Origin: Flavobacterium subsaxonicum WB 4.1-42 = DSM 21790
GTDB taxonomy: Bacteria; Bacteroidota; Bacteroidia; Flavobacteriales; Flavobacteriaceae
Reading direction: 5' to 3'
Assembly (NCBI RefSeq): GCF_000422725.1
Contig: NZ_KE383911.1
Location: forward strand, 1 to 64,000
DNA: 64,000 nucleotides
Below the pieces are notes generated by a model, which saw nothing but the letters and a program-made list of their open reading frames with translations, ran no database searches and was not told where the DNA came from. The first letter of the stretch is position 1; every line of letters begins with the position of its first letter. Positions 4,105 through 41,127 of the stretch are shown here, in pieces. A program made the position numbers and the translations under genes.

Positions 4105-5940
4105 ATGAATGCAAAAAAAGTAGTACTGCTGGTAGCCATTGCGCTGCTTGTTTTTTCGTGCAAACGAAAAGACGATTATGATGAATTGCTCAAAAAAATA
4201 GAAATTAATCCGGCATTTGAGAAATCGCCGCCAATTGCCAAAAATGTTTTTTTTGAAGCATTAGAGAAACCATTAGATAATGGTAACAACATGAGGTTTA
4301 TTGCCCAGTTTGATAAAGATGTTATAAGGGGCAGGTATCTGGCACTACTGCTGGACGACAAAAAGGTGGTACTGCGTGATGATGGTAAGTTTGCCGATAA
4401 GAAGGCTAACGACAACCAGTTTTCGGTATTTTTAAAGGAAGACCTGGGCCAGTTTAAGCAGGAAATTGCGGGCAGGCAAAAAGCTGCCCTGGATAACGAC
4501 CGGATGACGGTGTTTAAAAACAGGCAGATGCTTACCCTAAACACAAAAGAATTGCACACGGCCGACCTTACACGGTTTACTGCCGGGCGTATTTTTAGAA
4601 TACCGCCCGATATTTTCAGGATTACCGTTGGCCTTACCGATCCTGCAAAAACACTGTTGATTAATGAGGTAAGCGTGGTTGAAGACCCTGCACGTACATT
4701 TAACCCCTGCACGGGTGCCGGTACTGCAAACGGCGTGTGGACATTTGGTGCGCTAATGCGGCAAATGGCATCGCCCAACCCCGGGGCCATTGCTACCGAT
4801 GCCCAGGTGTCTGACTTTGTTATAAAATGGCTTAATACCTGGCAAACCAACCAAACCATAAATGGCGAAGATGTGCCGGCAAGGGCCACTGTGCAAAACA
4901 CATTATTAACGCCGTGGTTAAATGCCAGCCAGGCTGCGGGAGCACCTAATGGTGAACTTAAAATGGAGCTTGCCCCTTTTAAATTACTGGCTATTGTAAA
5001 CCGCATGGACTTGAGAGGAAATTCTGGCTACGGTTTTAGCAATGCCGGCGAAGGCAGGTTTGTTTTTAGCGCAATGGGCGCCAATTGCAGTCCGTTGCAG
5101 TTTACCGTTATTTTTGAATATGGTATTAATAAATCCAAATGCAGCACCGTTAAAGATTTTGCCAGAGAATGGCATGCCCTTGATGCCCTTGCAACAGGCA
5201 GTGCCGCTTACAACAATGCCCTGGAGCATATAACCATGCAGTTTACCCAAAGCGGCACCAATGTTAATAAGCCTAACCAAAATTCTATTAACCAGATACG
5301 TACGGATGATTTTTTAACATCGCCGTGGGAGCTAAGGGAGTTTAACCTTGCCGATACAGGGCTGCTTGTTCCGGCAACGGTAAAGCAGGAGCCTGCTAAA
5401 AAGTACAATGCAAAAATTAATAATGCCGATGTGCAGCGCCTTATTACCTATGTTAACAATAATTCAGGCATTATTGTAAATAATAATTATGAAGTTCCGG
5501 AGCAGGTGCCGCTAACAGCGGGTACCACAACGCCTACTACTGCGTTTTTGGGCGGTAAGGCTCATACTATGAGTCCCGGCCATTTTTGGAACGGTACTGC
5601 AACTGCGGCCGGGGGCGCCTTTATTACCAGTGATGAAGCCCGGCACATATTCTCGTTTAATACATGCAGCGGTTGCCACGGCGGCGAAACCAATACGTTT
5701 TTTACCCATGTTAAGCCCGCACCTTTTGGCTCTAAGGCGCAACTCTCTGGGTTTTTAACGGGCATTACTGTAACCGATGCCGCGAACAGGCCAACGGGTG
5801 CAGCCACCGTAAGAACTTTTAACGACCTTGAAAGGCGAAGGCTGGACCTTACCGATTTTATTAATAACCGCTGTACCAACATAAGGGTATTCGACCTGGC
5901 GCATGTACTAACATTTACACCCGTACGAATGACCCATTAA
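4105..5940 (+). CDS. Large lipoprotein with one CxxCH haem-type motif
   Basis: A 611-residue protein starting with a lipoprotein signal (MNAKKVVLLVAIALLVFSC). No enzyme family is recognised for the body. A single CSGCH motif at residues 521-525, set in FNTCSGCHGGET, looks like a c-type haem attachment site, so the protein may be an exported monohaem cytochrome. An alternative is that the cysteines bind metal or form a disulfide. It is monocistronic, with a terminator hairpin at 5970-5996 facing the TonB receptor gene. Confidence 0.6.
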   Translation: MNAKKVVLLVAIALLVFSCKRKDDYDELLKKIEINPAFEKSPPIAKNVFFEALEKPLDNGNNMRFIAQFDKDVIRGRYLALLLDDKKVVLRDDGKFADKKANDNQFSVFLKEDLGQFKQEIAGRQKAALDNDRMTVFKNRQMLTLNTKELHTADLTRFTAGRIFRIPPDIFRITVGLTDPAKTLLINEVSVVEDPARTFNPCTGAGTANGVWTFGALMRQMASPNPGAIATDAQVSDFVIKWLNTWQTNQTINGEDVPARATVQNTLLTPWLNASQAAGAPNGELKMELAPFKLLAIVNRMDLRGNSGYGFSNAGEGRFVFSAMGANCSPLQFTVIFEYGINKSKCSTVKDFAREWHALDALATGSAAYNNALEHITMQFTQSGTNVNKPNQNSINQIRTDDFLTSPWELREFNLADTGLLVPATVKQEPAKKYNAKINNADVQRLITYVNNNSGIIVNNNYEVPEQVPLTAGTTTPTTAFLGGKAHTMSPGHFWNGTATAAGGAFITSDEARHIFSFNTCSGCHGGETNTFFTHVKPAPFGSKAQLSGFLTGITVTDAANRPTGAATVRTFNDLERRRLDLTDFINNRCTNIRVFDLAHVLTFTPVRMTH

Positions 5941-5969
5941 TTTTGTACTATTTAAGTTTGTTTGGCAAC

Positions 5970-5998
5970 AGGGCACAATTACTACGGTTGTGCCCTTT
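5970..5998. terminator. Terminator between converging genes
   Basis: Perfect arms AGGGCACAA (5970-5978) and TTGTGCCCT (5988-5996) followed by TTGTTATT. It sits between the lipoprotein gene (+) and the TonB receptor gene (-), and could serve both directions. Confidence 0.75.
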
Positions 5999-6016
5999 GT
6001 TATTAAAACAATCAGC

Positions 6017-8170
6017 TTACAAATTTTCCAGTTGGTTTTTGCTTTTATTGGAGCTGATGGTCCAGAAAAAGCCTACGAAAAAGAAACGGCTTGCGGGCTG
6101 CGTAACCGCCTGGCGTGCAAACTGGCCGTCGGCACCCGCGTTGTCGGCATAGTTGTAGCCAAAAACATTATCGGCTCCTAAAACATTAGATACCGAGAAG
6201 TACAGTATTTTTTGCTGCGACAGCAGGTAGGCCCAGCTAAGGCTAAGGTTGTTGTAGCTTTTGGTGTGGCCATTCATAAACCTGGTTTCGTTAGGATTGT
6301 CGTACGGGCGGCCCGAGTTGTAGCTGTAGGTAACGCCTAATTGCGAGCGCAAATCGTTTATCCAGTATTTTGTTACTACAGAAAAATTGTGCGGGGCTAT
6401 GTAGCTTGGCGTTACTTTGCTTTCGTAATTTTTGTAATCGCGCTTGCTGTCTATGTACGAGTACGAAATCCAGTAATCAACGTTTTTAAAGGTACGGTTA
6501 TCCCTCCAAAAAAGGTCGATACCCCGCGCGTAGCCCTTACCACCATTGGTGTACTGGCTGTTATATTCCGGCAATTGGGTGTTGTATTTTACAAGGCTGT
6601 TGTAGTCTTTGTAATAGGCTTCGGCCCTAAAGGTTTTGCCCTCGCTGTTGTACATGTAGTTAAAAATATAGTGGGCGGTTTTTTCGAAATCAAATTGTTT
6701 GAAATATTTAATATAATCCTGCTTTGGGGTTTGGTAAAAATCGCCGTAGGCTAAAGAAAACTGTCCTTTTTTACCCGCCTTGTACGCCAGTGCCGCCCTT
6801 GGCTCTATGGTAGTCTTGCCAATTATTTGGGAGTACGAACTCCTCATCCCTGCCTTAATGGCAAAGTTTTTAGAAAAGATAACATCGCCCTCGGCATACA
6901 GCGCGCCAATGCCGTTGTAATAACCACTGTTGTAGGCAAAGCCGGTGGGTTCTTTATAATCCTCATTAAAATCGGTAATAAAATAATCGCCACCAAAAGT
7001 CAGCTTTACCCTGTCGCTAAAACCTTTAGTTAGTTTTAATTTAAGATGGCTGCTGTGCTCGCCATTGGTAACCTTATCGGCGTTAAGCCCAATATTGTTG
7101 TGGCTGTAACCGTAAGACACACCCGTTTGTATGGTCCACTGCGTGCCGAACATACCTTTATACGATGAGTTTACATAAAAATTATCGTTAGCCATATTTA
7201 CCCTAACCGGTGCAGGCTCGTTAATATCCTTTTGGTTCAGGTCGAAGTCGGCATGGTCAAAAGCGGCGTACACCTTAAACATACCATTGGTAAATTTATA
7301 GCGGTACACACTCTCGCCGGCAATAGACTGGTAGGGCTTGTTCCAGTTAACATCCTGCGGAACGATCCACTGGTAGGGTTGCAGGTTGGTGTAGGCCGCA
7401 TTAACGCTAAGCGAACTTTTATCCCACTTTTGGGTGTTGCTAAGGCCAAGTCCTACCGTCATTACCGCTACTTCGGTAGCTTCTTCCGCCGGCTCTTCTA
7501 TCGTGTTAAGCAGCAGCACGCTCGATAATGCCTCGCCAAACTCAGCCGAATACCCCCCGGTGCTAAACGTCATCCCCTTAAAAAGAAAGGGCGAAAAACG
7601 GCCACGGGTCGGCAAATTGTTAGCGGTGGCATTGTAGGGCTGCGCCACACGGATACCGTCTACAAAAGTCTGTGTTTCATCGGCCTCGCCGCCGCGCACA
7701 AATAGCCTGCCGCTTTCGCCTACTGTTTGTGTGCCCGGTAGTGTTTGCAGCGCGGCTATAATATTTCCGGCAGATCCTGCCGTTGTTACAATATCCAGCG
7801 GTTTAAGTACGTTGACCTTGCTGTTATCTCCGGCGCTAAACGTACCGGCCGAAATTACCACGGCATCTAACGTATTTACGCTTTCGCGGAGTTTGAATGT
7901 TTGCGGCTTAAAATTTTCCACCACTATATCCTGCCTTACATCATCGGCACTTAAAAAAGTAATTACCAGTACCTGTGCGCGTGTGGCGGTAGTTTCGAAA
8001 TTAAAGGTACCGTCTTCGGCCGATGTGGCGCCATCATACGTGCCATCTATATAAATGTTGGCGCCGGCAACAGGCTGCCCTTTAGCGTTGGTAACGGTAC
8101 CGCTGATAACGGTTTGCGCCTGGGCCGTAAATGCTGTTAAAAATAAGGTTAGGAGTAAAAGTGTTTTCAT
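6017..8170 (-). CDS. TonB-dependent receptor with carboxypeptidase-like N-terminal domain
   Basis: A 717-residue outer-membrane transporter. A signal peptide ends at TAQAQ; residues about 20-105 form a CarboxypepD_reg-like (CNA-B) domain (SGTVTNAKGQPVAGANIYIDG), common in Bacteroidota receptors. The plug domain follows (about 115-220, with LPGTQTVGESGRLFVRGG and FVDGIRV), then the beta-barrel to the end. The substrate cannot be read from sequence. No SusD partner lies next to it, so it is probably not a glycan receptor; metal chelate uptake is more likely, as inference. Confidence 0.88.
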   Translation of the reverse strand: MKTLLLLTLFLTAFTAQAQTVISGTVTNAKGQPVAGANIYIDGTYDGATSAEDGTFNFETTATRAQVLVITFLSADDVRQDIVVENFKPQTFKLRESVNTLDAVVISAGTFSAGDNSKVNVLKPLDIVTTAGSAGNIIAALQTLPGTQTVGESGRLFVRGGEADETQTFVDGIRVAQPYNATANNLPTRGRFSPFLFKGMTFSTGGYSAEFGEALSSVLLLNTIEEPAEEATEVAVMTVGLGLSNTQKWDKSSLSVNAAYTNLQPYQWIVPQDVNWNKPYQSIAGESVYRYKFTNGMFKVYAAFDHADFDLNQKDINEPAPVRVNMANDNFYVNSSYKGMFGTQWTIQTGVSYGYSHNNIGLNADKVTNGEHSSHLKLKLTKGFSDRVKLTFGGDYFITDFNEDYKEPTGFAYNSGYYNGIGALYAEGDVIFSKNFAIKAGMRSSYSQIIGKTTIEPRAALAYKAGKKGQFSLAYGDFYQTPKQDYIKYFKQFDFEKTAHYIFNYMYNSEGKTFRAEAYYKDYNSLVKYNTQLPEYNSQYTNGGKGYARGIDLFWRDNRTFKNVDYWISYSYIDSKRDYKNYESKVTPSYIAPHNFSVVTKYWINDLRSQLGVTYSYNSGRPYDNPNETRFMNGHTKSYNNLSLSWAYLLSQQKILYFSVSNVLGADNVFGYNYADNAGADGQFARQAVTQPASRFFFVGFFWTISSNKSKNQLENL

Positions 8171-32029: not shown

Positions 32030-33010
32030 CTATCTGTATACTACAATTTGCTTTACAGCTTTTTTGCCGTTAGCCGTTACGTTTACAAAGTAAATGCCGC
32101 TATGCAAACCCGAAAGATCTGCACTGCCGCTGCCCTGCAATTGGCTGCTATACACTAACCGCGACGCTACATCGTAAATAGTTACCTCAGCAATGCCATC
32201 GATTTCAGTTTTAATATAGAGCACAGTGCTGGCCGGGTTAGGATATACGCTAAATTGCAATCCTACTACCTCTTTTACATCCAAAACCTGTTGGTGTATT
32301 ACACCAATACCCGTAAGGTCGAAACCGCTGGTATTATAAGGCGTTGGGTATGGATCGTTAACCATGTTGCCAAAACTGTCGTAAGTGGCGTAGGCAGGCT
32401 CTAAAGAACCTACAACGTCTACTATTTTAACGTGGGTAATGTTGTTCTTGTTTAACAACGTATTATCGGGCACATCGCTAAGGTCGAAAGGTGTACCAAA
32501 ACCTACCCTGTATTTACCGGCAAGGTTGTTAAGGTTACGCGCATCTAACAGTCCAAACCCGCCTAATGGCGTTGCGGTTTGCGTTTGGCTGTGCGCCGGA
32601 AACCTGAAATAGTTAACCCCATCCGAACTTACCTCAACAAAAGCCAGCTCTAAAAAGGTATTGCTACCATTCTCGAAAACTGCAAAGTCAAAACCGGCTC
32701 CATTAGCAATAGGTGTTGCAAAAGTAGCAATAGCAGTACCGGCATCGCCCAGGCTTAGTGCGCCAGAACCCGGCATTCCAATAGCATCATCGGCTGTGCC
32801 GTAAGTTGCCATATTGCTGCCCTGGTATTCTACAGTAGGATCGGATATTTGTATATAGCCTCTCTCCACTGTTACGCCTGTAGCCCACGCAATAAACACG
32901 TTGCTATCCTGTGGTATGGCCGTTGTGCCCGCAGTATCAGCATCAGGTGGATATGATAGCTGCGCCTGGGCTGTAGCCGAAATAAGAAACAGAAGTAGTA
33001 ACTTTTTCAT
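32030..33010 (-). CDS. T9SS-secreted cell-surface protein of the cobalamin locus
   Basis: A 326-residue secreted protein (signal peptide ending at ATAQAQ) with a type IX secretion sorting domain in the last 75 residues (YPNPASTVLYI, SGIYFVNVTANGKKAVKQIVV). The body shows a jelly-roll-like pattern (GFDFAVFENGSN, LAFVEVSSDGVNYFRFPA) known from Bacteroidota cell-surface proteins without assigned role. It is the fourth gene of the riboswitch-led operon, 6 nt after the propeller gene. Extracellular binding of cobalamin or of the BtuB/BtuG complex is a guess from context. Confidence 0.75.
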   Translation of the reverse strand: MKKLLLLFLISATAQAQLSYPPDADTAGTTAIPQDSNVFIAWATGVTVERGYIQISDPTVEYQGSNMATYGTADDAIGMPGSGALSLGDAGTAIATFATPIANGAGFDFAVFENGSNTFLELAFVEVSSDGVNYFRFPAHSQTQTATPLGGFGLLDARNLNNLAGKYRVGFGTPFDLSDVPDNTLLNKNNITHVKIVDVVGSLEPAYATYDSFGNMVNDPYPTPYNTSGFDLTGIGVIHQQVLDVKEVVGLQFSVYPNPASTVLYIKTEIDGIAEVTIYDVASRLVYSSQLQGSGSADLSGLHSGIYFVNVTANGKKAVKQIVVYR

Positions 33011-33016
33011 GGGTTA

Positions 33017-34300
33017 TTATTGGATAACTACCTTTTTAACTGTTTTTGCGTTACCTGCAACTATTTGTACAAGGTAAGTACCTTTTTGTAAACCTGCAAC
33101 GTTGATTCCGTTAGCGGTGTAAGCTTCGGTTTTAACTATCCTTCCTGCAAGATCATATATGATTACATCGGCAGCATCAGTATCAACATAAAGCACCTCT
33201 GCAACCGGGTTAGGATATACGCTTACGTTTAAAGCAGCAATATCTTTAACACCGGCAGTAACTTGCGGAGCTTTGTAAAAACCATTAGGCAAAATGCCTA
33301 CTGTATAATCATCAAGCAATTCGCCATTGGTATCATATACAAATACTTTACCTGCCGACACATAATCTACAGCGTCGCCAACAAATATCTTATCATCTAT
33401 TAAGGCAAAACCATATACGCCATAAACGCCCTGCTCTTCAAGTGTTATTAAAGGCTCTGTTGGCAACGACGAATCTGTTTCTAACAAACGGTAAACACCC
33501 GAATCTATAGTATAATAAAGCGATTCGCCATCAGTTTGCAGGTTGGTTGGGTGTTGTGCCTCGCCAAATGCTACAGCGCCTAAAGGGCTAAGATCGCCGG
33601 AATCAATAATAAATAACGAGCCCGGGGTTTCATCCTCTGTCCACGATGGTTTTCCTTCGCAAAGAACAAAAAGGTACTCATCTATTACTACAAGAGATGT
33701 TGGCACATCGCCAACCGTTAGCGACTCAGCAAATGTATTGGTTGTAGCATCAAGAACACTAAGAGTATTACCGTAACCATAGCCTCCTTTGTGTGCAACG
33801 TAAAGCATTCCATCCAACTCAATAATTTTTTCAGGGCCTTCTACAACCGCAATGGTAGATGTTACAAGATTAGTGGCAAGGTTAATTACAGCAACATAAT
33901 CATCGGTAGTATCTAATGCGTCTCCCCAGCAGGTAACATAAGCATTACTGCCGTAAAATGCAATATAACGTGGGTTATCAAGGCCCTCGGTTACAGCCGC
34001 AACATGCACTAAAGTAGATGCATTTACAACCTCAACTTTGTTAGAGCCGTTAAATACCACATAACCATACTGACCTTTAAAGCCCATGCTTTGTGCAGTA
34101 TCGCCAAAAGTTGTTGCAGGGTTTGCTGTAGCATATACATCATTTTGAAGTACACCCGCATTAGATATAAAAGACAGCGAAGCATTGTTTTGACCAAAGC
34201 CACCTTCGTTCAATACAAATACACCTTCAGAAAAGGTTTGTGCCTGTGCACCAAAGCCAAAGGCCATTAGCACCAAGGCTAAAAAAGTAATTTTTTTCAT
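33017..34300 (-). CDS. BtuG-like beta-propeller with T9SS sorting domain
   Basis: A 427-residue secreted protein (signal peptide ending at GAQAQ). About 340 residues form a YncE/DUF5074-like propeller: FVLNEGGFGQNNASLSFI at the start, NPRYIAF, AVINLATN and PEKIIELDGMLYVAHKG mark blades. The last 75 residues are a type A T9SS sorting domain (VYPNPVAEVLYV, KGTYLVQIVAGNAKTVKKVVI). It is homologous to the next gene upstream, but uses T9SS and not a lipid anchor. Cobalamin capture is inferred from BtuG of Bacteroides and from the riboswitch. Confidence 0.8.
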   Translation of the reverse strand: MKKITFLALVLMAFGFGAQAQTFSEGVFVLNEGGFGQNNASLSFISNAGVLQNDVYATANPATTFGDTAQSMGFKGQYGYVVFNGSNKVEVVNASTLVHVAAVTEGLDNPRYIAFYGSNAYVTCWGDALDTTDDYVAVINLATNLVTSTIAVVEGPEKIIELDGMLYVAHKGGYGYGNTLSVLDATTNTFAESLTVGDVPTSLVVIDEYLFVLCEGKPSWTEDETPGSLFIIDSGDLSPLGAVAFGEAQHPTNLQTDGESLYYTIDSGVYRLLETDSSLPTEPLITLEEQGVYGVYGFALIDDKIFVGDAVDYVSAGKVFVYDTNGELLDDYTVGILPNGFYKAPQVTAGVKDIAALNVSVYPNPVAEVLYVDTDAADVIIYDLAGRIVKTEAYTANGINVAGLQKGTYLVQIVAGNAKTVKKVVIQ

Positions 34301-34318
34301 TATAATTGAGGTTTAAAA

Positions 34319-35356
34319 TTAATTAAAGTAAAATCCGTTAGGGCCTACGCCAACATTATAGGCACCTAAAAGCGACCCGGTTAGCGAAAAGGTAAACACC
34401 TGACTGTTAGATGCAAAATCGCCGCCTTCGGCAACATAAATTTTGTCGTCTTCTACATTAAAGCCATACATACCACCGTAAGCCGATGTAGACACATAGC
34501 TAAATAAAGGCGTAACAGGCAGCGTAGTAGCATTTACGCCCATGGTATATACAGATGTATCATTAGTGAAATAAATCTTATCGTCTTCTATAGTAAGGTT
34601 TTTAGAATATAGTAAAGCTTCCGGTAGTGTAACCGTACCAGCAATGGTGTTGTTAGAGAGGTTTATTTTACTAAGTTTAGAATCGCCTAATACATACAGT
34701 ATACCATCTTCTTCGTCAAACGAATTAGGAGAGTCGTTAAGCTCTATAACTTTTTCAACTGTATTATTGGCAGGGTTAAATACCGTTACCGATGTTCCGC
34801 TGCCGTAATAGCCGTTAAAAATGTAAAGCTTACCGTTTTCCTCGGTAATTTTTTCCGACCAGTTGTTAAGCTGTATTTTGCTTGTAGTAAAATCGGTAAG
34901 GTTAATCACGGTTAAAAAGTCGTCATCGCCAGTATTGTAATCGGCATAATTGGTAATGTATGCCTTGCCGTTAACTACAGCGCCATAACGCGGACTGCTA
35001 AAGTTGGTATCTACATTGGCAACAAACTCAAACGTATGGCGGTTTACTACTGTTACTTTATTTGCCGAACCCGATATGATAAACGTCAGATCATCGGTAA
35101 AGAAAATGGACTGTAAATAAGAACCCAATCCCGGTTTACCAGGATTTACAGTATTGTAAATGTCCTGTTGCACGGTGCTATTGTCTCCAATAAAAGTTAC
35201 CGATGCCGATGATACATTGCTGTTACCCTCGTTAAGTACAAACGTACCGTTATCAAAAGCCTGGTTTTCTACTTTTGTACCGTTATCATCATCACTGTTA
35301 CACGATACCAATACTGCAGATGCTGCAAAAGCTATCAGGTATTTTTTAAAATTCAT
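34319..35356 (-). CDS. btuG: BtuG-like surface lipoprotein, DUF5074/YncE beta-propeller
   Basis: A 345-residue lipoprotein (cysteine 19 in VLVSCNSDDDNG, with acidic residues after it as in surface-exposed Bacteroidota lipoproteins). The propeller repeats resemble those of the following gene: FVLNEGNSNVSSASVTFI, SPRYGAVVNGKAYITNY, FLTVINLTDF. In Bacteroides, BtuG of this family caps BtuB and binds cobalamin with very high affinity. It starts 3 nt after btuB in the riboswitch operon, the same pairing. The symbol is by analogy. Confidence 0.82.
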   Translation of the reverse strand: MNFKKYLIAFAASAVLVSCNSDDDNGTKVENQAFDNGTFVLNEGNSNVSSASVTFIGDNSTVQQDIYNTVNPGKPGLGSYLQSIFFTDDLTFIISGSANKVTVVNRHTFEFVANVDTNFSSPRYGAVVNGKAYITNYADYNTGDDDFLTVINLTDFTTSKIQLNNWSEKITEENGKLYIFNGYYGSGTSVTVFNPANNTVEKVIELNDSPNSFDEEDGILYVLGDSKLSKINLSNNTIAGTVTLPEALLYSKNLTIEDDKIYFTNDTSVYTMGVNATTLPVTPLFSYVSTSAYGGMYGFNVEDDKIYVAEGGDFASNSQVFTFSLTGSLLGAYNVGVGPNGFYFN

Positions 35357-35359
35357 ATA

Positions 35360-37189
35360 TTAAAATTTAATTGTTAAGTACATATTATAATTGCGACCCG
35401 GCAAAGGCCTGCTGTCTACACTTACATAATCTTTATTTGCAAAGTTTAAAACCTGCGCACCCAAAGTGTAGGTATTGGTTTTGCCAAAATTATAGGCCAC
35501 ACCGGCGTTAGCAGTAGTGTAGCTTTCTATATTATAGCGAGAGTCGTTATCGCTACGGGTAAATACCTCGCCATTGTATAAGAGTTGGGCATACGCCGAA
35601 AATTTATTAAACCCGTACGATACTCCTCCCGTAGCCTTGTGGTGGGGCACGTAGATAAGCTGTTTGTTGGTAGTCTCATCTTTAGAATCGGTGTAGCCGT
35701 AAGTACCGTTTACCTCAAAATTATGCCTGCCAAAAGCTTTTTTATAGGCCACTAAAAGCTCTGCACCGCTGGTAGTAACCTTATCGGTGTTCATTGGGCG
35801 CCACACGCTGCCGGTAGGTACCCAGCGCAGCATATCGTTTAATTTAATGTAATATCCGGTAAGGGTAAAATTCAGGTTACCAAAAGTAAAGGCATTGCCC
35901 AGTTCAGCCTGCCATGATGTTTCCGGCATAAGGTCGGCATTGCCACCATCCATCCAATACAAATCATTAAAAGTGGGTATCCTGAAGTTTTTAGACGTGT
36001 TAAGCTTAAGCGTATAAAACCCGGTAGCCTTATATTTTATTCCTGCTGAATACAACAGCGGACTCTCATAATTACTCGTTACTTCTTTACGAAGCCCGGC
36101 CTCATACATAAACCTGTCAGTTAAGTTGTGGGTAGCTAAAATACTGGCACCACCTATATGCCGGGTTTTGTTAATGATGTCGCTGCCAAAGCCCTTGTTC
36201 TGCATAAAATCGAACACCGTGTTTATCTTAAACTTCTCCCCTGCTTTAAAAAGCAGGTCGTATTTGGCTATTAACGATTCTACCCTGCCGTAGGTAAAGC
36301 CGGGGCTCTCTATATTTTGGTAGTATTTGTACTGTTCCTGCAAAAACGCGGCCTTGAATTTCGAAGTAAACTTGCCATACAGGCCTGCCCACTCCAGCAT
36401 ATTGCGGGTGTTGGAATCGCGGTACTTGGTTTTAACTTCCGACGGGAAAATAAGCGAGAAGTGTCTTTCGCCATCAAAAAGGTAACTGTAAAAGGTTAGC
36501 CTGTTCTTTTCATCTACCTTATAGGCTACAACGGCATTAAGACTGGTATTGTAATACTGCCCGTTAAGGTTGGTGCCGCCATTGGCATAGTCATAATCAT
36601 TATCAGAACTGTTTCTTGTAACGCTAACCGAAGCACTAAATTTATCTGACGCTATATTAGTGGAGTAATGATAACCCTGCGTATTAAAGCTGCCGTAGTT
36701 TACGCGAAGTTCGTTAGTAAACCGTTGCCCAAACGCTACCCGATTATCTAAATGGATACTACCCCCTATGGCACTGCTACCGTAAATAACGCTGCCGCCC
36801 CCTGCCCTAACTGTAACCGAATTAAAATCGCGGGTGGTAACGGTATTAAAATCGGTCTGCCCGTTGAGTTGTGAGTTAATGTTGATTCCGTTCCAGATAA
36901 CGGCGGTTTGCTGTGCGGTAGTACCTCTAAACGATGGCGATGACACCATGCCCAAACCGTTTTCTTTAAAGTAAATTACACTGTTGTAGTTTAAAAGGGA
37001 GGTTAACGAGGCTGCATTTTTATTGATAACAGAATCGTTTAACTGCTGTACCGATTGTGTGCCTGAGAAGTTGTGCAGCTGGGTATCGGTAATTATAACT
37101 TCTTTAAGCTGAACCACAGCGTCCTGTTGCGCCAAAAGGGTTTGGCACAGCAACAACAATAGCGGTAAGAACAGTTTTTTCAGCGTCAT
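35360..37189 (-). CDS. btuB: TonB-dependent vitamin B12 receptor, BtuB-like
   Basis: A 609-residue outer-membrane transporter. The signal peptide ends at TLLAQ; the plug domain (about 25-150) shows FRGTTAQQTAVIWNGININS and GGGSVIYGSSAIGGSI, followed by the barrel with a C-terminal phenylalanine. The length is close to E. coli BtuB, shorter than glycan receptors. A cobalamin riboswitch directly upstream and the BtuG-like partner give the substrate. I chose ATG 37189; the frame extends to a GTG at 37195. Confidence 0.9.
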   Translation of the reverse strand: MTLKKLFLPLLLLLCQTLLAQQDAVVQLKEVIITDTQLHNFSGTQSVQQLNDSVINKNAASLTSLLNYNSVIYFKENGLGMVSSPSFRGTTAQQTAVIWNGININSQLNGQTDFNTVTTRDFNSVTVRAGGGSVIYGSSAIGGSIHLDNRVAFGQRFTNELRVNYGSFNTQGYHYSTNIASDKFSASVSVTRNSSDNDYDYANGGTNLNGQYYNTSLNAVVAYKVDEKNRLTFYSYLFDGERHFSLIFPSEVKTKYRDSNTRNMLEWAGLYGKFTSKFKAAFLQEQYKYYQNIESPGFTYGRVESLIAKYDLLFKAGEKFKINTVFDFMQNKGFGSDIINKTRHIGGASILATHNLTDRFMYEAGLRKEVTSNYESPLLYSAGIKYKATGFYTLKLNTSKNFRIPTFNDLYWMDGGNADLMPETSWQAELGNAFTFGNLNFTLTGYYIKLNDMLRWVPTGSVWRPMNTDKVTTSGAELLVAYKKAFGRHNFEVNGTYGYTDSKDETTNKQLIYVPHHKATGGVSYGFNKFSAYAQLLYNGEVFTRSDNDSRYNIESYTTANAGVAYNFGKTNTYTLGAQVLNFANKDYVSVDSRPLPGRNYNMYLTIKF

Positions 37190-37204
37190 AATCACAAAAC
37201 CCTT

Positions 37205-37400
37205 TTCCCGAGGATTCGTTATTAGTTACCGCTTAAGGCAGGTCTCCTGGCTTGCGTACTGTTGTTTACCTTCCCGCGCTAAATAGCGTAGTGGCATGCA
37301 GTTAACAACAGCCTCTCAACATATTTGAGATTAGCTTACAGTTGCGGGAACAGCCCGGGCATTTACACCCGATTCCCTTTTAATGTGATATGCTACAGTG
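37205..37400 (-). promoter_or_regulatory. Cobalamin riboswitch
   Basis: On the minus strand the leader contains the conserved pieces of an adenosylcobalamin riboswitch in order: AAAGGGAA, GGTGTAAATGCCC, CCCGCAACTGTAAGC, GCCACTACGC, and the B12 box AGCCAGGAGACCTGCC (complement of 37237-37252). The btuB ATG is about 48 nt after the B12 box. High cobalamin should shut off the four-gene surface operon. Confidence 0.97.
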
Positions 37401-37425
37401 CACAATCACAACCTTAAGTGGATGG

Positions 37426-37433
37426 CAAAGATA
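37426..37433 (-). promoter_or_regulatory. -7 box for the riboswitch operon
   Basis: The complement reads TATCTTTG, a perfect TAnnTTTG, about 26 nt upstream of the riboswitch core. It is back to back with the box at 37453-37460. Confidence 0.7.
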
Positions 37434-37479: not shown

Positions 37480-38616
37480 ATGAGAAAGCTATATTTTATT
37501 CTTTTTATTGCACTATTGGCATTTGCCGGATGCAAAAACGAAACGCAGGCACCATTGGCAAAAGCCCAACAGGTAAAAAATGCCGTTAAATATGCCAAAG
37601 GCCTGCAAATATTTAAATATGATGGCATTACCGTTGTAAAAGTTACCCAACTCTGGCCCGATGCCAAGCAAGGCTTTACCTATGTAATGCAGCAAAAAGG
37701 CGCGGTAGTGCCCGATAGTTTAAAGCAGTTTACCATTATTCCCGTGCCATTAACCAGCGTTATTGTAACCTCAACTACACACATACCATCACTCGAAATG
37801 CTGGGTGTAGAAAGCACTCTGGTGGGTTTTCCGGGTACTGATTATATATCGTCTCAAAAAACACGCGCCCTTATTGAGGCCGGCAAGGTTAAAGAAGCCG
37901 GTGCTAACGAGAGCCTTACTACCGAAGTGGTTATAGACCTTAACCCCGCCGCTGTGGTGGCTTTTGGCATTAACAGCACCAACAAGACACTTAACACCTT
38001 AGAACAAAGCGGACTTAAAGTGCTTTACAACGGCGACTGGACTGAGCAATCTCCGCTTGGTAAAGCTGAATGGATTAAATTTTTTGGCGCGCTTTACGCG
38101 AAAGATGCCCAGGCCGATGCATTGTTCTCTCAAATAGAAAAAGATTATAATGATGCCCTTGCCTTGACTAAAAATGTTACCAAAAAGCCTACCGCTATGG
38201 CAGGGGCAGTTTATCAGGATCAGTGGTTTATGCCGCAGGGTGGCAGCTGGGGGTCGTTATTTTTAAAAGATGCTGGCGCCAATTACCTTTGGGCTGATGC
38301 CGAAGGAACGGGCAGCCTGAGCCTCTCGTTAGAAACTGTTTTGGATAAAGCCCAGAATGCCGAGATATGGATTGGCCCGAGCCAGTTTACATCATTAAAA
38401 GAAATGACCGATGCCAACCCGCATTACAGCCAGTTTAAATCGTTTAAAAACAAAGAGGTATATTCGTATAGTGTAAAAAAGGGCAAGACAGGAGGGCTTA
38501 TTTATTTTGAGATGGCCCCTAACCGCCCCGACCTGGTTTTAAAAGACCTGATTAGTATTTTTCACCCTGAACTACTACCGGGCTACCAGTTAAACTATTT
38601 CGAAAAACTAAAATAA
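37480..38616 (+). CDS. btuF: ABC transporter substrate-binding lipoprotein, BtuF-like
   Basis: A 378-residue lipoprotein (cysteine 18 in AFAGCKNE) with a periplasmic binding protein fold of the FhuD/BtuF class: VTSTTHIPSLEMLGV, TTEVVIDLNPAAVVAFG and PHYSQFKSFKNKEVYSYS are in the expected order. It should pass substrate to the FecCD-type permease encoded 1 nt after its stop. Cobalamin is inferred from the divergent riboswitch operon; iron-siderophore is the alternative. The symbol is by context. Confidence 0.82.
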   Translation: MRKLYFILFIALLAFAGCKNETQAPLAKAQQVKNAVKYAKGLQIFKYDGITVVKVTQLWPDAKQGFTYVMQQKGAVVPDSLKQFTIIPVPLTSVIVTSTTHIPSLEMLGVESTLVGFPGTDYISSQKTRALIEAGKVKEAGANESLTTEVVIDLNPAAVVAFGINSTNKTLNTLEQSGLKVLYNGDWTEQSPLGKAEWIKFFGALYAKDAQADALFSQIEKDYNDALALTKNVTKKPTAMAGAVYQDQWFMPQGGSWGSLFLKDAGANYLWADAEGTGSLSLSLETVLDKAQNAEIWIGPSQFTSLKEMTDANPHYSQFKSFKNKEVYSYSVKKGKTGGLIYFEMAPNRPDLVLKDLISIFHPELLPGYQLNYFEKLK

Positions 38617-38617
38617 C

Positions 38618-39652
38618 GTGCAACACCCTAAACGCAACATAGCGCTTTTTATCATTTTGGGCATTGCCCTTGCGTTGCTGTTTATAGTAAATATTAGTTT
38701 AGGGTCGGTTAAAATCCCAATGCAGGATGTGCTGCAAAGCCTTACCGGCGGCGATGCCTCTAAAACTACCTGGCAGTATATTATTATAAACTACAGGCTA
38801 CCAAAAGCCATTACAGCCTTACTGGTAGGCATGGGCTTATCGGTCAGTGGATTGTTGATGCAAACACTGTTTCGTAATCCGCTTGCAGGGCCAGATGTTT
38901 TAGGATTAAGTTCAGGCGCAAGCCTGGGTGTGGCCTTTGTAATATTAGGGTCGGCGGTACTGCCCGGTGCAATGGCAGGTTTTTTTCTTTCATCTTACGG
39001 CATTGTACTGGCTTCTACATTGGGCAGTTTTGTGGTATTACTGGCTGTGTTAGCCGTGGCACAGCACCTGCGCGATACTATGGCAATACTTATTATCGGC
39101 CTTATGTTTACAAGCTTTACGGGCGCTATTGTAGGAGTGCTGACTTACTTTAGCACTGCCGAACAGCTTCAGAAATATACATTTTGGTCATTAGGCAGTT
39201 TAGGTAACTTAAGCTGGGGCAACATTATAATTTTGGGCTTGGTAACGCTTGCCGGATTGTTACTTTCTGCACTTTGTATAAAACCTTTAGATGCGCTATT
39301 ATTAGGCGAACGCTACGCCAAAAGCATGGGCATCGACTTTAATAAAACACGCTTTATAATAATACTGGCAACCAGCCTGCTTACAGGCTGTATAACGGCC
39401 TTTGCCGGGCCTGTAGCCTTTGTTGGGCTTGTAGTGCCGCACATGGCAAAACTGTTGTTTAAAACCAGTAATCACATGTTGTTGTTTTGGGCAACGCTGC
39501 TTTGCGGAGGCATATTACTATTGCTATGCGATATCTTTACCCAATTGCCCGGCAGCTCTTTCGTGCTGCCTATAAACGCTATAACAAGCATTGTCGGTGC
39601 ACCGGTGGTTATTGCCTTATTACTTGGTAAACGTAAAGGAATTTTTAATTAA
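38618..39652 (+). CDS. btuC: FecCD/BtuC-type ABC permease
   Basis: A 344-residue inner-membrane protein with about ten helices. Family motifs are visible: RLPKAITALLVGMGLSVSG, MQTLFRNPLAGPDVLGLSSGASLG and FVGLVVPHMAKLL. It starts with GTG at 38618, one nucleotide after the btuF-like stop. It forms the channel for cobalamin or a siderophore; context favours cobalamin. Confidence 0.88.
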   Translation: MQHPKRNIALFIILGIALALLFIVNISLGSVKIPMQDVLQSLTGGDASKTTWQYIIINYRLPKAITALLVGMGLSVSGLLMQTLFRNPLAGPDVLGLSSGASLGVAFVILGSAVLPGAMAGFFLSSYGIVLASTLGSFVVLLAVLAVAQHLRDTMAILIIGLMFTSFTGAIVGVLTYFSTAEQLQKYTFWSLGSLGNLSWGNIIILGLVTLAGLLLSALCIKPLDALLLGERYAKSMGIDFNKTRFIIILATSLLTGCITAFAGPVAFVGLVVPHMAKLLFKTSNHMLLFWATLLCGGILLLLCDIFTQLPGSSFVLPINAITSIVGAPVVIALLLGKRKGIFN

Positions 39653-39658
39653 CCGGTT

Positions 39659-40444
39659 ATGGAAAAAGGCACCACTTTATTACAGGCTATCAACCTCAGC
39701 ATTGGCTACACCGCTAAAAAGCAGGCAGCTACAATTGCGAGCAATATTAACCTGGAACTAAAAGCCGGAAGCCTTACCGCACTTATCGGCGCCAACGGTA
39801 TTGGAAAGTCTACATTATTGCGAACCCTTACAGGAATCCAGCAGCCTTTAAGCGGCAACGTATTGCTAAACAATATGGCTGTTGCCGAATATAGTGCGCA
39901 GGAACTTTCGCAAAACTTAAGCATTGTTTTAACCGAAGCGCTTCCTCCAAGTAACCTAACCGTTTTTGAGTTAGTGGCACTCGGTCGCCAGCCGTATACT
40001 AACTGGTTGGGCAGCCTGTCTGATGATGACTTTACAAAGGTTAATATTGCTTTAAAGCTTACCCAAACAGCACATTTATCGCACAAAAAACATTTTGAAA
40101 TAAGCGATGGCCAGCTTCAAAAAGTACTTATAGCGCGCGCCCTGGCACAGGATACCCCACTTATTATTTTAGACGAGCCTACCACCCACCTGGATTTATT
40201 ACATAAAGTAAACCTCCTGCGCCTTCTAAAAAAACTGGCACAAGAGGCTAATAAATGTATTTTATACTCTACCCACGATCTTGACCTCGCCCTGCAACTA
40301 AGCGACCGGATTATTGTAATGACGCCCCAAACCGTTGTGCAGGGCACCCCGCAAAACCTTATTGATAACAACGTATTTGACACCCTTTTTAACGATGCCA
40401 ACATTGTGTTTGATAAAGATAAGGGCGGGTTTGTAGTAAAGTAG
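39659..40444 (+). CDS. btuD: ABC transporter ATP-binding protein, BtuD/FecE type
   Basis: A 261-residue ATPase. Walker A is GANGIGKST at 44-52, the signature is ISDGQLQKVLIARAL, where LSGGQ is altered to ISDGQ, and Walker B is LIILDEPTTHLD. It completes the btuFCD-like operon, starting 6 nt after the permease. A convergent lipoprotein gene ends 5 nt away. Confidence 0.88.
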   Translation: MEKGTTLLQAINLSIGYTAKKQAATIASNINLELKAGSLTALIGANGIGKSTLLRTLTGIQQPLSGNVLLNNMAVAEYSAQELSQNLSIVLTEALPPSNLTVFELVALGRQPYTNWLGSLSDDDFTKVNIALKLTQTAHLSHKKHFEISDGQLQKVLIARALAQDTPLIILDEPTTHLDLLHKVNLLRLLKKLAQEANKCILYSTHDLDLALQLSDRIIVMTPQTVVQGTPQNLIDNNVFDTLFNDANIVFDKDKGGFVVK

Positions 40445-40449
40445 TAAGA

Positions 40450-41127
40450 TTAATTGGTAAGCTGCATCTTATAACATTGATTGGCAGCTACGGTTAATGT
40501 ACCCTCCCACGTTTTTTCGGAGCAGCTTGCACTATAGCTGTACGTACCTGCCGGCACTGTAAAGTTAGCGCAGCCAGATGAACCGCATGCGGGAGACGAA
40601 CTAAAGAAAGACGATATACTACCAGATCCCTGTCCGGTTAAAGAAACGCTGATTGACCCGCAACCAAGATCTGACTGTACCCAGAATGTAATATTACCAT
40701 CTCCAGAGCCACCGGTACCGCCGCCTCCGCCAGTTCCACCTCCACCGGATCCATCACAAGGAAAATTATCCGATGCATAATATATCTGTGCCGTGTGGGT
40801 ATCTACCACCTGGTCTGGCACGCCTACAAGCATTTGGTCGCCATCTATTGCCAATGGAAATTTAATAGTTTCACCATTAACTACAAAAGTCATAGAGGGT
40901 TCTGATGCGTCAAAAGATCCTACCGTTTCTACGTTATTTGAACAAGTAATGGCCGACGTTCCGCTAAAGCGCACGTAGGTTTCCATGTTGCTGCGTTTCC
41001 AGTCGCCTTCAAAACTTGAGCTCTCATCGTTCTCAAAACTAATAGGTTCTTCATCCTCACAGGAAATTATGGTAATGGTAAAAGCCATAACCATTAAGAA
41101 GCTTAAAATTTTAGTAATTTTTTTCAT
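40450..41127 (-). CDS. Uncharacterised lipoprotein with glycine-rich linker
   Basis: A 225-residue lipoprotein (lipobox cysteine 23 in ITIISCEDEEP). Residues about 30-125 form one beta-rich domain (WKRSNMETYVRFSG). A GGGG-rich linker (about 128-146) leads to a second domain with six cysteines, paired in CGSISV, ACGSSGCANF and ASCSEKTW. Likely surface or periplasmic with disulfides. Family not recognised. Confidence 0.6.
   Translation of the reverse strand: MKKITKILSFLMVMAFTITIISCEDEEPISFENDESSSFEGDWKRSNMETYVRFSGTSAITCSNNVETVGSFDASEPSMTFVVNGETIKFPLAIDGDQMLVGVPDQVVDTHTAQIYYASDNFPCDGSGGGGTGGGGGTGGSGDGNITFWVQSDLGCGSISVSLTGQGSGSISSFFSSSPACGSSGCANFTVPAGTYSYSASCSEKTWEGTLTVAANQCYKMQLTN

Follow-up and report, generated by a model that had tools for sequence, protein, structure and literature searches.

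Two BtuG-type propellers and a jelly-roll partner at a cobalamin locus of Flavobacterium subsaxonicum: a probable importer with a proposed T9SS-exported capture pair

A cobalamin locus with two kinds of propeller

The window analyzed here is a 64,000-nucleotide stretch of the genome of Flavobacterium subsaxonicum WB 4.1-42 = DSM 21790 (contig NZ_KE383911.1, positions 1 to 64,000), and the genes of interest form a minus-strand row behind a cobalamin riboswitch (37220..37431, minus strand; Rfam RF00174, 104.2 bits, E 5.2e-25). The row comprises, in order of transcription and all on the minus strand, a BtuB-like TonB-dependent receptor (35360..37195; Pfam TonB_dep_Rec_b-barrel and Plug), a BtuG-type propeller lipoprotein that is a probable lid of BtuB (LIP, 34319..35356), a BtuG-type propeller with a type-A sorting domain of the type IX secretion system, T9SS (T9P, 33017..34300), and a jelly-roll protein with a T9SS tail of its own (JRL, 32030..33010), separated by gaps of 3, 18 and 6 nt. 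The receptor scored 104 bits with TIGR01779, under the cut-off of 599.7 bits for that model.

Both propellers were matched by Pfam DUF5074 (PF16819; LIP 55.4 bits, T9P 58.3 bits, cut-off 27.2), both carry the motif FVLNEG, and they were 35% identical over 331 columns (E 3e-53), far beyond chance. Their export signals differ. The lipoprotein signal of LIP ends in LVSC, and Cys19, the residue for lipidation, is followed by acidic residues (C-NSDDD, 35285..35302), so that a lipobox cysteine and an acidic export signal are both present when LIP is set beside published lipoproteins (PMC6143338, PMC5080379). The NSDDD stretch resembles SDDFE, the surface-export consensus of F. johnsoniae lipoproteins (PMC5080379). 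T9P and JRL have ordinary signal peptides, as judged by eye. T9P has no lipobox and bears the sorting domain instead (residues 361-427, 33020..33220; PF18962, TIGR04183); it was the only one of the two propellers to match Por_Secre_tail (53 bits). The sorting domain of JRL spans residues 255-324 (32039..32248; Pfam and TIGR04183 profiles), and TIGR04183 scored 52.9 bits for T9P and 54.1 bits for JRL, both over the cut-off of 23. A sorting domain was confirmed in 10/10 other T9SS-tailed propellers scanned. The initial annotation had described two adjacent homologous propellers at these coordinates, one a lipoprotein and the other T9SS-tailed, and in this it was correct.

Solved Bacteroides BtuG chains matched the whole propeller of T9P (residues 19-341, E 1.3e-33) and matched LIP in pieces (1.8e-16). 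An AlphaFold2 model of LIP was obtained at a mean predicted local distance difference test (pLDDT) of 89.4; its best 16 PDB matches were all BtuG chains, and the predicted fold was superposed on BT2095/BtuG3 with a template modelling (TM) score of 0.78 at 2.4 A. LIP and T9P are thus alike in fold and family, and with BtuB and the riboswitch adjoining, the earlier assignment to a BtuG-like pair in a B12 locus was borne out.

The pocket was compared with BtuG2 by alignment, after the residue numbers of PMC10404256 had been checked on the printed chain (11/11 agreed). In that paper the beta-5A loop of BtuG2 closes on B12 in simulations. T9P keeps a loop of 13 residues (33620..33658). The window's LIP retains a remnant of 3 residues, GDS (34679..34687), against 14 in BtuG2, and lacks the Tyr239-closing feature of the BtuG2 pocket. 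LIP was still filed as BtuG-type because the loop is no part of a published family definition and its length varies among lipoprotein BtuGs. T9P, having a sorting domain and no lipobox, is therefore to be called a BtuG homologue and not a BtuG in the published sense.

Two further kinds of propeller were met. In the single lipoprotein BtuGs of loci L071-L082, some 110-130 residues separate the lipobox from the propeller, perhaps as a stalk. They had been considered as T9SS forms on account of their frame lengths, and this was rejected, since all 12 carried a lipoprotein flag and had the additional residues ahead of the propeller; in L071, the one checked, these residues are a Calx-beta domain (Pfam). 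Contig C14 of the same genome as the window carries another T9SS-tailed, weakly BtuG-like propeller (L223:6709-8001; 65 bits, no Pfam propeller match), and no B12 gene match was found around it in the 16 kb read.

Origin of the T9SS-tailed propeller and exchange of modules

A search with T9P recovered a T9SS-tailed propeller adjoining a lipoprotein BtuG in at least 9 of the 395 genomes sampled from the family (the window, G067, G105, G245, G259, G292, G362, G368 and G382). In G105, G259, G292, G362, G368 and G382 a single protein of about 650-657 residues comprises T9P and JRL; in the window, G067 and G245 they are two genes with a sorting domain each. Named genomes with T9P and JRL belong to Winogradskyella, Aequorivita, Bizionia, an Ulvibacter-labelled genome, the unclassified Flavobacteriaceae PS02334, one Chryseobacterium and four Flavobacterium species (zepuense, endophyticum, humi and selenitireducens). 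The closest named locus among the matches listed, that of F. zepuense, agrees with the window in all four genes and in their order. Across 25 T9P rows, two of which are genome repeats (L064/L127, L069/L130), JRL accompanied T9P every time (adjoining in 18, fused in 7), and LIP lay within the stretch at 23, the other two genomes carrying it elsewhere. A BtuG profile matched 160/197 class-wide genomes, and among the matches listed class-wide a T9P-like frame of 431 residues was seen only in the window. Four other long frames (G413, G462, G520, G523) included two fusions of a propeller with a BtuH-type (H) domain, and a sorting domain was matched in 0/4.

Propeller rows numbered 144 in all, with 93 in a quick tree and 75 in a careful tree; pruning by hand took out duplicates (L064 = L127, L069 = L130), close copies and rows that were long or distant. 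The JRL tree held 43 rows from 90 loci, and the BtuB tree 54 rows by the quick method. In the careful tree one clade (support 100/98) held 20/21 T9SS-tailed propellers, and its sister (98/89) was a group of 12 Winogradskyella-Bizionia-type lipoproteins, of which T9P loci supplied 11. The window's LIP sat in another, short-loop clade, apart from T9P. The beta-5A loop measured 13-15 residues in 20/20 rows of the T9SS clade, 13 in 12/12 sister lipoproteins, 3-7 in 27/27 rows of the window's LIP clade and 9-16 in ten outgroup rows; a short loop is not exclusive to the window's clade, being of 2 residues in 1/20 other flavobacterial lipoproteins. A constraint joining the LIP/T9P pairs from the window and from its three closest relatives in one clade was rejected by the approximately unbiased (AU) test (log-likelihood difference 229, p 2e-43), and one clade of 18 lipoprotein partners was rejected at p 9.9e-5.

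The initial annotation had proposed a duplication followed by a switch of export route. This is supported in outline because 20/21 T9SS-tailed propellers form a clade sister to lipoprotein BtuGs, but it is not supported for the window's own lineage: the phylogeny placed the two propellers in one family and not as closest kin. As read from the sequences, one duplication and one export switch in a Winogradskyella-Bizionia-type lineage most likely explain the T9SS clade. The row outside it comes from Chryseobacterium sp. Leaf394 (L151:2186-7954), where a lipoprotein, a T9SS-tailed propeller and a JRL occur together. That propeller is a long branch, and its beta-5A loop, short at 6 residues, fits a second origin. 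A single origin of all 21 T9SS-tailed propellers gave an AU p of 0.0147, in a test chosen after the first tree had been seen; a second origin is likely, though not certain.

Within the T9SS clade, the fused and split forms of T9P-JRL required two state changes. In a quick tree, two fusion proteins of family f32 fell apart from fused T9P-JRL (AU p 2.6e-38), and the pairing of a propeller with an H domain therefore looks convergent. A single clade of T9SS-linked JRLs was neither resolved nor rejected (AU p 0.364).

Pairwise distances were compared by a Mantel approach over 18/25 T9P loci, with L151, four near copies or repeats, L139 and L142 omitted. Correlation was high within the pairs BtuB-LIP (r 0.84) and T9P-JRL (r 0.89) and lower across them (r 0.48-0.57; BtuB-T9P 0.48), and the BtuB tree followed LIP rather than T9P. 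The lipoprotein thus evolves with BtuB as a cap would, in keeping with the earlier proposal that it caps the receptor. In the trees, three loci display exchange. In Aequorivita capsosiphonis (L132), T9P and JRL are Aequorivita-type, and BtuB and LIP fall next to G239. Genome G292 (L065) has a fused T9P-JRL that belongs to the G362/Bizionia type, and its BtuB and LIP are those of the G013/G101/G106 type. At the F. humi locus (L141), BtuB, LIP and one JRL are of the local Flavobacterium type (moderate support for the JRL, 88/76), and a T9P with a second, T9P-type JRL (99/93) lies between them. BtuB with LIP, and T9P with JRL, behave as separate, exchangeable evolutionary units.

The second unit also occurs alone. 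Aequorivita sinensis (L139) and F. selenitireducens (L142) each have T9P-JRL directly downstream of a cobalamin riboswitch, with no BtuB or LIP in a 14.7-kb stretch (L139 unit 5030-7921, riboswitch 5030-5262, T9P from 5658; L142 unit 5346-7915, riboswitch 5346-5532, T9P from 5646). Both genomes have a LIP-type match on another contig, directly behind a BtuB. Altogether a cobalamin riboswitch was present at 13/13 scanned T9P loci, 11 times before BtuB and twice directly before T9P.

The jelly-roll protein and the wider locus

JRL, which begins 6 nt past T9P, was not part of the initial annotation, although this probable BtuH-type binder adjoins or is fused to the T9SS-tailed propeller in every one of the 25 rows. 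No credible Pfam family was found for the JRL body in 44/44 members (best E 0.007, from scattered families), and a sequence search of the PDB matched no BtuH chain. The body was modelled (32291..32959) with a pLDDT of 96.8 and a predicted TM score (pTM) of 0.93. In VIA-align the model was closest to BtuH2 (7BIZ; Z 12.6, 157 residues) and then to the H domain of BtuG1 (8BLW_B; Z 11.3, 162 residues), followed by CBM32 domains at 9.5 and below; in Foldseek the sole hit under 0.001 was 8BLW_B (3.9e-4). The alginate-lyase carbohydrate-binding module of AlyQ, met in this fold comparison, is the one that BtuH2 has been reported to resemble (PMC8941943). BtuJ structures were not among the best 50 VIA-align rows, which carries no weight. 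An assignment of JRL to DUF4465/BtuJ had no backing from Pfam, PF14717 being matched in 0/44 members.

For a comparison by profile, three H-type domains of family f32, perhaps Bacteroidaceae, were aligned, of which two belong to fusion proteins and the third to a BtuH-like protein; the one searched matched 8BLW at 2.9e-68 and 7BIZ at 2.7e-31. The JRL profile aligned to these domains at E 8.9e-5 (two control comparisons, 0.55 and 0.58), and the JRL hidden Markov model gave weak hits of 11-16 bits on all three. The alignment reaches as far as Asn399 and Phe401 of BtuH2, two residues in contact with B12, the former at its phosphate (PMC8941943; numbering checked, 8/8 agreed). Asparagine at the Asn399 position was invariant in 44/44 JRLs and is Asn114 in the window (Asn97 of the modelled body; 32669..32671, placed by alignment of the GNAF motif); phenylalanine stood at the Phe401 position in many rows. 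On its predicted fold, JRL is a probable B12 binder of the BtuH type.

JRL is widespread among B12 loci of Bacteroidota, and relatives were found in at least 555 stretches of the genome collection. At the best 80 loci a BtuG- or BtuB-like gene was in reach in 66, and JRL had a sorting-domain match in 76. The other 14 had no BtuB or BtuG in reach, and 8 of these 14 were on shortened stretches. Eight of the 14 were scanned for riboswitches, and a cobalamin riboswitch was present at five (L163, L166, L177, L182, L190), within about 1.3 kb upstream of JRL in L177, L182 and L190. A JRL-profile hit was obtained in 71/197 class genomes; 66 were strong (>250 bits), all among the 160 genomes with a BtuG-profile match, as compared by eye. 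T9SS-tailed DUF4465 (BtuJ-type) proteins were found in JRL loci, making up 4/6 T9SS-tailed proteins checked (L191:5976-6944, L188:2853-3824, L165:652-1668, L166:1371-2396), and T9SS export of B12 binders is on this account probably wider than described. According to PMC13398666, more than 70% of DUF4465 proteins are predicted to be lipoproteins, and the remainder bear signals that target them to the periplasm.

Variant forms of JRL were noted. One, on a contig labelled Verrucomicrobiaceae (L168:2104-2904), has another tail in place of the T9SS domain, possibly another change of anchoring; the tail looks like PEP-CTERM. Tandem JRLs, and JRLs whose sorting domain is preceded by additional residues or domains, occur at L202:6944-9253, L158:427-2133 and L184:6935-8890.

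On the plus strand beyond the riboswitch lie a BtuF-like periplasmic binding lipoprotein (37480..38616; PF01497, 70.4 bits), a BtuC-like permease (38618..39652; PF01032, 261 bits; NF003001 BtuC 191 bits, under its cut-off of 334 bits) and a BtuD-like ATPase (39659..40444; PF00005, 101 bits). A small lipoprotein-like open reading frame adjoins them (40450-41127; no Pfam family at E 0.1), and the 5' part of a 16S rRNA gene lies at the window edge (1-224). In the genome, three B12-binding domains scored over cut-off and a search found no CobS, on which grounds the organism probably imports B12. SprA, the sole T9SS gene searched, is encoded (SprA_N, 412 and 209 bits, both in one frame of 2474 aa).

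Proposed B12 scavenging, its alternatives and known systems

Gene content, export signals, phylogeny, module structure and predicted folds point, with reasonable confidence, to B12 scavenging in two modules, an importer of BtuB and LIP and a T9SS-exported capture pair of T9P and JRL; from these we infer B12 binding by T9P and JRL, their anchoring or release, and a hand-over. BtuB-LIP is taken as a pedal-bin importer in view of the way LIP evolves together with BtuB and keeps its place behind it. T9P-JRL is taken as a secreted capture pair because both proteins are T9SS-tailed and adjacent or fused, because they can occur as a separate unit under riboswitch control, and because a BtuG propeller and a BtuH-type domain are paired as in BtuG1. 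When B12 is scarce, the riboswitch would allow expression of all four genes. BtuB with its LIP lid would work as in Bacteroides BtuBG; T9P and JRL would leave through the type IX system, be anchored to a glycolipid or released, capture B12 and may hand it over to BtuB-LIP, and BtuFCD would complete import. As to history, a lipoprotein BtuG of another flavobacterial lineage would have been duplicated, one copy gaining a T9SS tail to become T9P, and later recombination of the T9P-JRL and BtuB-LIP pairs would have left a non-cognate pair in the window.

Several observations weigh against this reading. Trp272 and Tyr239 of BtuG2 correspond to His and Pro in T9P, and Trp194 aligns with a gap in both T9P and LIP; the counterparts of BtuH2 Phe401 and Gln333 are missing in the window's JRL, and the hhalign probability of JRL against the H domains was 59.5, over 58 columns. 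The contrasts between modules were 0.27-0.38 with jackknife errors of 0.13-0.20, about 1.5 to 2.8 standard errors, and all modules correlate, so that some shared descent remains. JRL-like jelly-rolls extend beyond B12 loci: the LIC_13355 family is related to JRL, 5 of the 71 genomes with JRL hits held only weak hits (49-57 bits) not evidently linked to B12, three weak loci read (L218-L220) had no B12 gene match in 13-14 kb, and 3/8 scanned JRL loci without BtuB or BtuG had no riboswitch (L173, L185, L196). SprA was found in 191/197 class genomes, so that its co-occurrence with JRL says little and a link between JRL and T9SS-bearing genomes is uninformative.

Other explanations were weighed against the same results. 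LIP and T9P adjoin on one strand and are 35% identical, as recent tandem copies in the window's lineage with export switched in situ would be; that account is scarcely credible, having been rejected by the AU test above (p 2e-43), and LIP shares its own clade's short beta-5A loop while T9P has the long one. T9P might alternatively be a second kind of BtuB lid, replacing or exchanging with LIP, rather than a free capturer of B12, as would be favored by its fuller beta-5A loop and by the propeller-H-domain fusion that forms the lid in Bacteroides BtuB1G1 (PMC10404256). This is distinctly improbable, however: BtuB distances track LIP more than T9P (r 0.84 vs 0.48), BtuB and LIP switch clade together in L132, L065 and L141 where T9P and JRL do not, a BtuB elsewhere in the genome keeps LIP directly behind it where T9P-JRL stands alone (L139, L142), and hardly any T9P locus is without LIP in its stretch (23/25 have it), the two remaining genomes carrying it elsewhere.

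It is also unlikely, if somewhat less so, that T9P and JRL bind another ligand or are structural surface proteins riding in a B12 operon. The altered aromatic positions of T9P, the two BtuH contacts missing in the window's JRL, the inclusion of sugar-binding CBM32 in the jelly-roll superfamily and the weak JRL-like proteins outside B12 loci would all agree with such a role; the cobalamin riboswitch at every scanned T9P locus and at 5/8 scanned JRL loci without BtuB or BtuG, the BtuH2-type predicted fold of JRL and the presence of T9SS-tailed DUF4465, a B12-binding family, in the same loci (4/6 checked) speak against it. A variant of the history, compatible with the two-module scheme, is that T9P-JRL is old and vertically inherited and that the BtuB-LIP half was replaced beneath it. 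This is possible though doubtful. At locus L132, T9P and JRL have stayed Aequorivita-type while BtuB and LIP belong to another clade, as such a replacement would produce. Against it, the F. humi locus, with local-type BtuB, LIP and JRL and an extra T9P-JRL, suggests that the pair was gained, free-standing T9P-JRL units have a riboswitch to themselves, and the GC content at third codon positions (GC3) of T9P in the window is low, at 0.29 vs 0.37-0.50 in five other measured genes of the locus.

A broader and more tentative proposal, held at somewhat less than even confidence, extends the two-module scheme to T9SS-bearing Bacteroidota at large, which would have a secreted layer of B12 capture made of T9SS-tailed BtuG (T9P), BtuH (JRL) and BtuJ (DUF4465) proteins. 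JRL would be a phylum-wide B12-binding family of the BtuH type, and T9P-JRL a siderophore-like 'cobalophore' that is released and can be moved between BtuB-lid backgrounds or placed in its own riboswitch operon. Vesicle-borne BtuJ of Bacteroides has been proposed to act like a siderophore (PMC12751083), and by analogy a T9SS-released pair could do so without vesicles.

B12 capture in the cited papers rests on surface lipoproteins of gut Bacteroides. No description of T9SS-exported B12 binders was found in the titles and abstract starts retrieved on B12 and type IX secretion, most subscription papers lying outside the search, and in the literature searched, BtuG and T9SS were mentioned together only in the context of the BAM complex. 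If T9P and JRL bind B12, environmental Bacteroidota would compete through protein secretion and not only through lipid anchoring, and a large protein family without a Pfam domain would gain a function. Related genomes, with their fused, split, free-standing or lid-only loci, amount to a natural experiment on whether a secreted high-affinity binder feeds the BtuB lid or competes with it.

Among known systems, SusCD-type systems similarly combine a capped TonB transporter with extra surface glycan binders, but their caps and binders are lipoproteins, and the discussion in PMC10404256 describes no T9SS-tailed propeller among them. BtuJ/DUF4465 proteins are, as JRL is proposed to be, accessory jelly-roll B12 binders of such loci; JRL has no DUF4465 match, and T9SS-tailed DUF4465 proteins occur beside it in the same loci. 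BtuH2 (7BIZ) resembles JRL in predicted fold and in the motifs SLG..G..I..F and N-x-F around Asn399, but is a lipoprotein with PKD domains, whereas JRL is the smaller of the two, has a T9SS tail and retains just some of the contacts. BtuG2 and BtuG3 (BT1954, BT2095) share with the window's propellers the fold, the NEG loop, Tyr316 and the setting in a B12 locus; BtuG2 is a lipoprotein, whereas LIP is without the beta-5A loop and T9P is T9SS-tailed. The nearest parallel in architecture is BtuG1 of B. thetaiotaomicron (BT1490, 'BtuGH', PDB 8BLW), a propeller with a C-terminal BtuH-type domain encoded beside BtuB, in the same order as in fused T9P-JRL; BtuG1 is a lipoprotein and the lid of BtuB1, whereas T9P-JRL is T9SS-tailed and coexists with a separate lipoprotein lid.

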